Source of the DNA: Leptolyngbyaceae cyanobacterium C42_A2020_001
GTDB lineage: Bacteria; Cyanobacteriota; Cyanobacteriia; Leptolyngbyales; Leptolyngbyaceae
Assembly: GCA_015272515.1 (NCBI GenBank)
Contig: JACYLN010000059.1
Coordinates: 1 to 64,000, forward strand
DNA: 64,000 nucleotides
Reading direction: 5' to 3'
Shown: positions 7,978 through 12,379 of the stretch, in pieces
Layout of the letters: each line of letters begins with the position of its first letter
Position numbering within the stretch: the stretch's first letter is position 1
The notes under the pieces: generated by a model
Database searches by the model: none
What the model was told of the DNA's origin: nothing
The model's input: the letters and a program-made list of their open reading frames with translations, nothing else
Position numbers and translations under genes: made by a program

Positions 7978-8280
7978 TTAAAGTAACGCGTTTAAGCTCT
8001 GCACTACCGGGCATTGTCGCTGTTGGACAATGCGCTGATAGATGACAGCCAACTCCAGCGCCACCCCGTCTTCTACTGCACTGGCTGCTTCTCGTGTGGC
8101 ATAGGGTACATAAATTGGGTCACACTCCTCAGACTGGAAAAGCGTTTGAGCAATTTCACAAAACAGCTCCTCATCCAATCGTTCGTTGAGACCTGTGCCA
8201 TCCAAATTTGTCATCAACTGTTGTTTAGCTTTACACCGAATAACCGCCCGTAAAGGGTATACAGGGTTAGCAAGTTCCAT
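7978..8280 (-). CDS. Conserved hypothetical protein (100 aa)
   Basis: A 100-residue soluble protein, acidic in the middle (NERLDEELFCEIAQTLF), with no signal peptide or membrane segment. It looks largely helical. Family not recognised. It lies between the helix-hairpin-helix gene and dacB on the same strand, with gaps of about 115 and 70 bp, so cotranscription is possible but not shown. Confidence 0.55.
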   Translation of the reverse strand: MELANPVYPLRAVIRCKAKQQLMTNLDGTGLNERLDEELFCEIAQTLFQSEECDPIYVPYATREAASAVEDGVALELAVIYQRIVQQRQCPVVQSLNALL

Positions 8281-8395: not shown

Positions 8396-9421
8396 CTAAA
8401 TTCCACAACTCATTTGCAAATCCTCAACCTGGTAGTTAGCTGGAGTGGCACTTTGCAGTTGCAATAGCGGCACTTTGAAATAGCCTGTCACAGAGGCAAA
8501 ATTTTCGATAGAAGCAAATGCCAACAAACGGTAAGCCCCTGGTTTCTCTAAGGTGATTTGAGGCAACAAGATAGTGCATTTTGCCGCATCCTGGAGTTGC
8601 ACTGTGATGCGGGTTTCTCCCAGGTCTGTAACTTCGCCTGTTGCTAGATGGCGTGCTTGCCCTTTGGCATGGTAGACGATGGATTTATTAGTGGAGTTGG
8701 CGATCGCATCAGCTGCAATTCCTACCGTTAATTCCACTGCAAAAGGAACGTTGGTCACCAAACTGTCAGCCATCAGTGGATCGGCTTTGCCTGCAACCAT
8801 TGGGCTATCAGGTAAACCCGCCTGAAAGATCCGGATTTCAGCAATATCAATCGCGATGGGTTCCGCAGATGCCACGATTGCTCCTCCATTAGCTTCTAGC
8901 GTTTCAGTCAAGCGATCGTGCAGCCACTGGTGCAGCGGGTCTTCGGCAATGCCTGCCCAACTCTCAACTATTCCAGTTTCTAGCTGTTGAATCAAAGTGC
9001 GCTGCTCTTTTATACCGTTCACTTCGCGGGTTTGCACTTCAATGTTGAAGCCAGTAACCGTGTTCCATTCATCTCTGGGTTGGGCAGTGGATGGAGGCGG
9101 CACATCGAACGCGATCGCCTTCGGGCATTCTTGATCGAGTTCCACTTCAGGAAATGAGCTTTTGCTGGGGATGTAATTCGTCAAAATTTGTGCCTGTTTC
9201 ACCCACCCTTCTACTTCACTTTGCGACACTATATAACCAATTTCTTTTAATTGCTCTCTTAGTTCTACAACAGTTACTTGAGCGAGTGCATAAATGGTTT
9301 TAATACCAAGTGATTCCAGCCATTTTTTCTTTGTCGAGCCAATACCTCGGATACAAGTCAATCCCTGCGACTGCTTTCCATTCCCATTATCTACAGCTTG
9401 GTTTGTTGGCAACTCACTCAT
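8396..9421 (-). CDS. Helix-hairpin-helix protein with C-terminal beta domain, unknown
   Basis: A 341-residue protein in three parts. Residues about 20-78 form a helix-hairpin-helix pair (LTCIRGIGSTKKKWLESLG, then LAQVTVVELREQL), like DUF4332/HHH_5 domains that bind DNA or act as protein adaptors. Residues about 115-185 hold a conserved-looking mixed segment (EWNTVTGFNIEVQ, EDPLHQWLHDRL). Residues about 190-330 form a beta-rich domain that by eye follows the same strand pattern as the product of the gene just upstream. No enzyme motif is visible. Function unknown; a structural or adaptor role is inferred. Confidence 0.65.
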   Translation of the reverse strand: MSELPTNQAVDNGNGKQSQGLTCIRGIGSTKKKWLESLGIKTIYALAQVTVVELREQLKEIGYIVSQSEVEGWVKQAQILTNYIPSKSSFPEVELDQECPKAIAFDVPPPSTAQPRDEWNTVTGFNIEVQTREVNGIKEQRTLIQQLETGIVESWAGIAEDPLHQWLHDRLTETLEANGGAIVASAEPIAIDIAEIRIFQAGLPDSPMVAGKADPLMADSLVTNVPFAVELTVGIAADAIANSTNKSIVYHAKGQARHLATGEVTDLGETRITVQLQDAAKCTILLPQITLEKPGAYRLLAFASIENFASVTGYFKVPLLQLQSATPANYQVEDLQMSCGI

Positions 9422-9506
9422 ATCAGCAACATCCTGTTGTATTGATTCCCTTACGTTATTTGCTGCTTAGTCAGCAATGAATGTTCAAAAGCTTTTTAGA
9501 GAAACA

Positions 9507-9531
9507 CTGGTAGGCACTAGTAACCTACCAG
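9507..9531 (-). terminator. Probable intrinsic terminator after the beta-rich protein gene
   Basis: CTGGTAGG (9507-9514) pairs perfectly with CCTACCAG (9524-9531) around a nine-base loop. On the minus strand it is followed by TGTTTCTC. It lies between the two paralogous genes, so the upstream beta-rich protein probably has its own short transcript, with some read-through to the helix-hairpin-helix gene. Confidence 0.5.
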
Positions 9532-9663
9532 GGAAGAACCTATCCAAGCTGCTGGTTAAAGTTATCACAACCTCTCCATAGAGCTTGGAATCGGTTCTCA
9601 CCGCTTCCTGGGTACCATAGGAGCACGGTGATGGGTTAGATACACAGCATGACTGCCGCAGAT

Positions 9664-10212
9664 TTAGATTTCTGCACCAGCGGGATACACTTGAAGCAGA
9701 ACTTCTTTGATGTAGCCATGACCGAAGATCTTGGTGCTGCACGCATTACGAACAGGACCAACTTCAGCCGTTGCAGAGATGGAATACAGACCAGAGGTCA
9801 AACCATCGCGGGCAGGAACGCCGCTATAGGTAACACGGTAGCTGTAAACATCTTTGCGGGTCAGGATGGTTTGAGACAGGTCAACTTCAACTGCACGACG
9901 ACCAAGTCCTTCAAACGCGAAGTAGATGGTCACTTGGGTTCCCAGACACATTAACAATTCTGTTAAAGGTGCACGGTTGAACTCGATGTCAACACTCACG
10001 TCGTAAGCTTCGTCAGCCGCAATAATGTAAGGAGAATTGGCAGGAGCCGCTGGCTTGGTGCTTCTACCGCGAACATTCAAGTTAGATAGTTTGAAAGAAA
10101 CAGGACCAACGATGCTGCGGGAGTAGGTTTCGCTGTTGGTGAGTTCATCAGGTTGTCCGGGAACTCCCTTCAGTTCAGCAGTCATTGCCATTGCTTCGAT
10201 TTCCAAAGACAT
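9664..10212 (-). CDS. Beta-rich conserved protein, paralogous to the next gene's C-terminal domain
   Basis: A 182-residue protein with no signal peptide or membrane segment. Its alternating polar/apolar strands suggest a beta sandwich. Segments such as DVSVDIEFN, TIYFAFEG, SGLYSISATAEV and the end VLLQVYP line up with FAVELTVGI, SIVYHAKG, GAYRLLAFASI and PLLQLQ in the downstream helix-hairpin-helix protein. I took ATG 10212, with GAGG eight bases upstream. The frame stays open to 10341, but that extension is low-complexity (SKGASDKAQTP). No known family recognised; function unknown. Confidence 0.65.
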   Translation of the reverse strand: MSLEIEAMAMTAELKGVPGQPDELTNSETYSRSIVGPVSFKLSNLNVRGRSTKPAAPANSPYIIAADEAYDVSVDIEFNRAPLTELLMCLGTQVTIYFAFEGLGRRAVEVDLSQTILTRKDVYSYRVTYSGVPARDGLTSGLYSISATAEVGPVRNACSTKIFGHGYIKEVLLQVYPAGAEI

Positions 10213-10543: not shown

Positions 10544-12379
10544 TTACAACTTTGTGCCGCATTCGGGACAGAAGCGGTTTGTAGACAAATTTTTAGCGCT
10601 GCAATTGCTGCAATGAATCAGTTCTGTTACTTTTTCTAGACGTTTGTGTTCTGGTAAGCCGATCATCTGGGCGTTGTTTTTGCCGGAGGGTACCATCGGG
10701 TAGCAGTTTTCATCCTTTTTGACGCGGGCTTCCAGCAAGACAGGACCGTTGTGTGCCAGCATTTCAGCGATCGCACCTTTGAGTTCATCCCGCGATCGCA
10801 CCACCATACCTTTGATACCGTAAGCCTCTGCCAACTTCACCACATCAGGCATTCCCGTTTGCATATTGGATTGGGAATAGCGCTCGTCATAAAAGGCTTC
10901 CTGCCACTGGCGCACCATCCCCTGCCAGCCATTGTTGATGATTACCGTTTTCACGTTGATGCCATACTGGGACAGCGTGCCCAACTCCTGAATATTCATT
11001 TGAATACTGGCATCACCGCTAATGCAAATCACCTCTTCATCCGGCATTGCCACCTTTGCACCCATCGCGGCAGGCATGCCGTAGCCCATTGTGCCTAACC
11101 CGGCACTAGAGAGCCAGCGGCGAGGACCGTTCTTTAAGAACTGAGCTGCCCACATTTGATGTTGTCCTACATCTGTGCTGTAAAACGCATGGGGTGCCTG
11201 ATTTCCTACTTCCACAATCACTTCTTGCGGGGAGAGGCTATCGGCATAGTGGGGCACAACCAGGGGGTAGTCTTCCCGCCAGCGGTTGATGCGGTTAAGC
11301 CATGCCTGGTTGCGATCGGGTTCGTGGCGATCGCCGTCTTCCTGACTGCGCCGCAGCATATCCACCAAAACATGCCGCACGTCTCCCACAATCGGCACTT
11401 CGGGCGCACGGTTTTTCCCAACTTCGGCGGGGTCAATGTCAATGTGAATGACTTGAGCATGGGGCGCAAATTCGTTCAGCTTGCCTGTTACTCGGTCATC
11501 AAAGCGAGCACCAACGGCAATTAACAGATCACACTCCATCACGGCAAAGTTGGAGTAAGCCGTGCCATGCATCCCCAACATTCCCACTGAGAGGGGATGA
11601 TGTTCGTCAAATGCACCAATGCCCATCAGGGTCGTGGTTACAGGCAAATTGAACAGTTCTGCCAGTTCTTTAATTTCGGCGTGGGCACCCGCCGCGATCG
11701 CGCCTCCACCCACATAAAGCAACGGTTGTTTTGCCTGACGGATTAGCTTCAGCGCATTGGCAATCTGGTTGGGGTGCCCTTTTACCGTTGGACGATAGCC
11801 CGGCAGTTTGATCGAACCCGGTTCCACCGGAACATAATCAAATTCTTCGGTTCCCACATCTTTGGGAATATCGATCAGGACTGGACCGGGACGACCTGTA
11901 CTGGCAATGTAAAAGGCTTCTGCCACAACTCGTGCCATGTCTCGCGGGTCACGCACCACGTAAGAATGCTTCACGATAGGCAGGGTAATGCCGTAGATGT
12001 CAGTTTCCTGGAAGGCATCACTGCCGATCGCATGACGAGGCACTTGCCCGGTCACCACAACCATTGGAATTGAATCCATGTGGGCAGTGGCAATTCCAGT
12101 GACGAGATTAGTTGCACCGGGACCTGATGTACCGAAGCAAACACCGACTCGACCCGTTGCCCTGGCGTAACCATCTGCCGCGTGAGTTGCGCCCTGCTCG
12201 TGCCGCACTAAAATGTGTTGCAGTTCGCCGCGAGCTTCAAAGCGATAGAGTTCGTCATAAATTGGCAGAATTGCACCACCAGGATAGCCAAAAATGTGTG
12301 TGACACCGTGGCGCTTCAAGCTATCCATCAATGCGTAAGCACCCGTTGCCCGTTGAACAGCTACACGTTGAAGTTGCAC
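10544..12379 (-). CDS. ilvB: Acetolactate synthase large subunit with C-terminal zinc ribbon
   Basis: A 611-residue thiamine-diphosphate enzyme that condenses pyruvate to acetolactate (or to acetohydroxybutyrate) in branched-chain amino-acid synthesis. The N-terminal PYR domain has [14 protein letters not shown] and [13 protein letters not shown]; the C-terminal domain has the cofactor motif starting SGDASIQMN and ending INNGWQGM. Residues about 588-611 add CSNC-x10-CPEC, a complete four-cysteine zinc ribbon after the normal end of the enzyme. The regulatory small subunit (ilvN) is not adjacent. It is transcribed away from the lipoxygenase gene. Confidence 0.95.

Follow-up and report, generated by a model that had tools for sequence, protein, structure and literature searches.

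Two adjacent genes on the minus strand of the window (the whole 64,000-nucleotide stretch of contig JACYLN010000059.1 of Leptolyngbyaceae cyanobacterium C42_A2020_001 analyzed here) encode a small beta protein and a larger helix-hairpin-helix (HHH) protein, and the homology of the small-protein beta domain and the C-terminal beta domain of the HHH protein, as paralogs, is well supported. The best-supported reading, which we hold tentatively, is that the small protein is an abundant Ig-like subunit to which scarce adaptors dock through the same fold. It draws on the shared domain, its predicted fold, the adjacency of the genes, repeated fusion to SUKH, a conserved hairpin and codon bias.

Two proteins with a common beta domain

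The first-pass annotation had placed two open reading frames of no recognizable family here; both exist at the coordinates of Table 1, and neither has a curated family above cut-off. The small protein starts at the ATG at 10212, as it does across its family when relatives are compared, and an alternative longer reading frame (225 aa from 10341) is not conserved. Searches of the small protein against Pfam, NCBIfam, PHROG and PADLOC retrieved no family, and a profile search with its family against PDB sequences gave no match. Plasmid and phage records gave no match either, and thus no sign of mobility there.

Table 1. Features of the gene pair and its surroundings (window coordinates).
Feature	Position	Strand	Remarks
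Conserved neighbor, 100 aa, ends ...VQSLNALL	7978..8280	-	family member <=9 kb from the small gene in 20/45 loci
HHH-middle-beta protein, 341 aa	8396..9421	-	stop included
C-terminal Ig-like beta domain, family B, residues 187-325	8447..8863	-	paralogous to the small protein (well supported)
Middle beta-beta-beta-alpha domain, residues 119-180	8882..9067	-	common to SUKH-fused paralogs; AlphaFold
Helix-hairpin-helix domain, residues 20-82	9176..9364	-	sub-threshold Pfam match and AlphaFold
Intergenic hairpin CTGGTAGG-N-CCTACCAG	9507..9531	-	conserved in relatives
Small beta protein, family A, 182 aa	9664..10212	-	stop included
Ig-like beta-sandwich of the small protein, residues 37-178	9679..10104	-	AlphaFold and VIA-align

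The HHH domain announced by the first-pass annotation is real, yet it scores 20.9 bits against DUF4332 (PF14229), below the Pfam gathering cut-off of 23.2, so that the protein is classed as HHH-like only and not as a DUF4332 member. It has the N-terminal HHH motif in common with DUF4332 and HHH_5 domains, from which it differs by scores under the curated cut-offs and by its fusion to a middle and a beta domain. A profile search of the HHH family against the PDB returned only weak matches to HHH domains of DNA-polymerase type and others at chance level. What had been described as a mixed middle part turned out to be a beta-beta-beta-alpha domain common to the SUKH-fused paralogs, which makes middle plus beta the mobile module.

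BLASTP detected no pairwise similarity between the two proteins. We built profiles from 47 small proteins (A), from 33 C-terminal domains taken from HHH and from SUKH-fused proteins (B) and from seven proteins of about 155 aa out of the same clusters (C). Direct profile-to-sequence comparison of A to B was not significant (best E 0.078), and homology consequently rests on profile-profile and bridging evidence together with the fold. With hhalign, A and B align co-linearly over 129 columns (E 1.2e-4, 55%), or over 132 columns at 86% with second alignments, and the A-C and B-C comparisons reach 97.5% and 96.7%. The A-B score of 32.3 lies above all 200 column shuffles (best 20.0), a reversed profile (14.9) and unrelated cluster families (at most 18.6); the program returned these scores despite one column-mismatch error in the control run. 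Profile A detects six of the seven C proteins and profile B all seven (E<1e-3), while profile C detects 31/47 A and 7/33 B proteins; reversed decoy sequences gave no match to any of the three profiles. Judged by these profiles, family C is a bridge between the beta domains of the small and the HHH proteins. It forms a third small Ig-like paralog of about 155 aa, seen at L070:5477-5914, L077:9273-9737 and L078:7451-7918 and at L074, L091, L109 and L113.

The shared beta domain had been proposed by eye from four strand pairings, and all four recur in the profile-profile alignment. Three of them (SIVYHAKG/TIYFAFEG, GAYRLLAFASI/SGLYSISATAEV and PLLQLQ/VLLQVYP) are in exact register, but FAVELTVGI/DVSVDIEFN is offset by a single residue. 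The paralogy of the domains is upheld; the order of events, duplication and then fusion, stays the proposal of the first-pass annotation.

Comparison of the predicted folds had been named as a test, and the two folds agree: AlphaFold models both beta domains as the same Ig-like sandwich with the same predicted strand order and topology. Mean pLDDT is 82.7 for the small protein and 81.9 for the HHH protein, both beta domains being locally of high confidence; the pTM of 0.51 of the HHH model leaves its domain arrangement unfixed. Eight PDB entries, as read, are common to the two lists of the best 50 VIA-align matches, with nearly equal target ranges; the Wzt-C structure 6o14 is matched from 254 to 378/379 and Brr2 (5m5p) over 2048-2163. 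For 6o14 the values are Z 9.5, rmsd 3.3 and 116 aligned residues with the small protein, and Z 9.2, rmsd 3.5 and 115 aligned residues with the HHH model. The predicted fold resembles Ig-like or E-set sandwiches such as RhoGDI and the C-terminal domains of Wzt and transglutaminases (Z about 8-11, roughly 100-130 residues aligned). Identity to these three groups is low, at about 6-15% in their rows, and here, in contrast to them, we have a bacterial domain with a fusion to HHH or SUKH. The likeness to the RhoGDI-like domain and to the Wzt-C carbohydrate-binding domain is one of predicted fold alone. A viral structure library yielded only weak, scattered sandwiches.

A cluster with interchangeable heads

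In a sample drawn evenly from the class, the small protein is found in 39 of 291 genomes and the HHH protein in 30, some of the latter being partial matches only, in the HHH part or elsewhere. A scan of 84,980 species genomes based on the small-protein alignment relied on one peptide pattern and gave at least 39 loci, all with cyanobacterial titles and mostly with record names of filamentous Leptolyngbya-like organisms. We counted 45 loci with a small gene, the window included, comprising 25 clusters and 20 stand-alone copies. The latter have no adaptor gene nearby (8 of them have the 100-aa gene), indicating that the small protein is kept without an adaptor. In three stand-alone loci (L093, L096 and L097) the small gene adjoins genes that by eye resemble those of ribosomal proteins L27 and/or L21.

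Adjacency of the pair, the other test named for it, is conserved, with the small gene directly upstream of 17 of the 20 HHH-beta genes. The exceptions are L067, where the small gene is cut by the contig end and its fragment still matches, L110, and L111, where the HHH gene is present without a small gene. In fuller genomes the order is a divergent LuxR-type regulator, the small protein, the HHH-beta protein and a SUKH-1 protein with or without middle plus beta; some genomes add an M4 metalloprotease (protealysin-like), emfourin and the 100-aa protein. The 25 cluster loci hold LuxR in 18 cases, HHH-beta in 17, SUKH in 16, the 100-aa protein in 12 and, within 9 kb, M4 in 8 and emfourin in 6. The LuxR-type regulator has a GerE domain above cut-off and a PAS domain at sub-threshold level only. 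The SUKH-1 (SMI1/KNR4, PF09346) neighbor passes the Pfam cut-off in relatives (38.2 and 44.2 against 25.4 bits) and, unlike plain SUKH-1 proteins, is fused in part of the genomes to the same middle-beta module. At L065, M4 domains and emfourin are adjacent and above their cut-offs. An M4 peptidase followed by emfourin (PF20242), as found in some relatives, is reminiscent of the protealysin-emfourin operon; unlike there, the pair is embedded in the beta/HHH/SUKH cluster. PADLOC gave no match for the window proteins and weak matches for the SUKH and LuxR neighbors of one relative.

The genome of the window keeps the small, HHH and 100-aa genes, and LuxR-type relatives lie elsewhere in it. No SUKH homolog was found in this genome, its sole M4 homolog found lies on contig C89, and the protealysin-emfourin pair is absent at the window locus. 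The window pair is a reduced form of the cluster of filamentous Leptolyngbya-like cyanobacteria, of which the listings of our literature searches showed no published description.

Some further features of the surroundings were noted. The 100-aa protein, whose conserved C-terminus is of LNALL type, is found repeatedly beside the small gene, whether or not the HHH gene is there, and has no Pfam family above cut-off. Response-regulator-like and large membrane-sensor-like reading frames lie downstream of the cluster at L070 and L077 (by eye). Upstream of the window pair, an acetolactate-synthase-like reading frame (10544-12379, minus strand, named by eye) has a zinc-ribbon-like C-terminal tail, and a near-identical tail occurs in a genome of the same genus (L061:8821-10656).

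In a tree of 34 HHH- and SUKH-borne beta domains (the last 150 residues of each), the HHH and SUKH labels need 3 changes, at least 2 of them forced by supported branches, and a single change occurs in 0% of 200 bootstrap trees; several long branches make the details of the tree unsure. By this tree, fusion of the beta module to SUKH took place at least twice. Such repeated joining to different heads fits, in our interpretation, a portable docking domain.

A conserved hairpin and the codon bias of the small gene

The first-pass annotation gave the small gene its own terminator. There is indeed a conserved hairpin, with a 9-bp stem, between the genes, but its U tract is weak, and terminator-like sites in our scan are no more frequent than in shuffles (2 found against 2.4 expected). 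The tail is TGTTTCTCTA in the window and TTTTTT in some relatives; several stand-alone copies have a U-rich tail, and ahead of many HHH genes it is weaker, e.g., TTCCTATT, which would fit partial read-through into the latter. The hairpin pattern is unique in the window, where none is expected, and the intergenic RNA has a more favorable folding than its shuffles (z -4.8). Across the 291 genomes the exact pattern has 12 sites in 11 genomes, 10 of them immediately beyond the 3' end of the small gene. In 26 flanks, chosen from 61 because their best stem carried the recognizable core, a selection that inflates covariation, 93.7% of the cells are paired, and both partners vary in 9 of the 11 pairs. 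We searched a covariance model in 59 genomes, 39 with and 20 without the small gene. Among its 32 matches (E<=0.0041), 28 lie on the strand of a small gene and no more than 300 nt beyond its 3' end; they cover 28/47 small genes and 26/39 genomes, and seven of the 28 were held out of training and provide the fairer test. The model had no match in G224, G230, G273 and other small-gene genomes.

Rfam offered nothing credible, and passages of PMC8209669 were of no help on hairpins.

By its symmetry the dyad resembles a lux-box-like DNA operator. We consider this candidate the less likely one: the loop length varies from 7 to 9 at the exact-match sites beside small genes, and both arms of the stem vary. 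In the sequences compared, both features favor an RNA hairpin over a DNA site.

As a proxy for expression we used codon weights from 16 reading frames of ribosomal-protein operons, chosen by eye in the window genome. The codon adaptation index (CAI) of the small gene is 0.772, ranking first against 49 reading frames of the window (median 0.708) and inside the ribosomal range of 0.692-0.780, and that of the HHH gene is 0.714 (rank 14). C-ending pyrimidine codons are more frequent in the small than in the HHH gene at 17 of 22 loci (p=0.005, by a statistic that ignores relatedness), leaving 5 of the 22 loci in which the small gene is not above the HHH gene in codon bias. The suggestion that the small protein is made in excess is backed indirectly by the conserved hairpin and the codon bias, and is probably correct.

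A proposed subunit with its adaptors, and other readings

The pair had been likened to a subunit and its anchor, and we interpret it along similar lines. The small protein would be an abundant free Ig-like subunit, and the HHH protein a scarcer adaptor that, having the same fold at its C-terminus, could take a place in an assembly of small subunits. The adaptor would thereby equip the assembly with its HHH head, which probably binds nucleic acid or protein. The same middle-beta module bears a SUKH head in relatives, as a portable docking part might. The hairpin may stop or stabilize most transcripts after the small gene, which would yield an excess over the adaptor, and the LuxR-type neighbor may regulate the cluster. 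In operons of the cpcBA-cpcC type an abundant subunit is followed by a hairpin and a linker. The window pair is alike in gene order, with a putative abundant subunit, a hairpin and a putative adaptor; it differs in that no pigment or linker family was found here.

The main rival takes the cluster for a protease conflict or regulated-proteolysis module, in which M4 would be the effector, emfourin its inhibitor, SUKH an immunity-like component and the beta proteins targets, carriers or guards. In several genomes M4 and emfourin do share a gene string with the cluster, SUKH-1 scores above its cut-off, and the protealysin-emfourin pair of Serratia is discussed in PMC9505478 as a competition-type pair. 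However, M4 and emfourin are confined to 8 and 6 of the 25 cluster loci, the only M4 homolog of the window genome lies on another contig, where SUKH is concerned none was found, and Pfam, NCBIfam and PADLOC searches found no toxin-like domain in the window pair; we consider such a module unlikely.

Another reading, which we find rather improbable, has the beta domain bind a carbohydrate or other ligand inside the cell, in the manner of Wzt-C, with the HHH and SUKH heads passing on the signal and no assembly involved. Both models have Wzt carbohydrate-binding domains among their best fold matches, but comparable Z values are given by many Ig-like domains that are unrelated (RhoGDI, factor XIII, Brr2), and no glycan gene was recognized by eye within the cluster lists. 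Convergence of two unrelated Ig-like domains would account for the missing BLAST match and the insignificant direct profile-to-sequence comparison, and the Ig-like sandwich is a common fold that could arise by convergence; against it stand the bridging family C, which matches both profiles, the profile-profile controls and the common gene string, and we disfavor it as very improbable.

Under the reading as abundant subunit and docking adaptors, two orphan hypothetical proteins become members of a defined domain family within a conserved cluster and acquire a modular logic, one beta module with swappable heads, and the RNA element yields a prediction on the subunit ratio. A fuller picture, which we regard as doubtful, is an undescribed assembly in the cytoplasm of filamentous cyanobacteria, in which a scaffold of the abundant Ig-like protein would carry docked HHH and SUKH adaptors at a ratio set by the hairpin, under a PAS-like/LuxR switch, with an intracellular protealysin-emfourin pair as effector or disassembly factor in some lineages. 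Should the assembly be real, it would add a new protein complex to those of cyanobacteria, one that in some lineages comes with its own protease.
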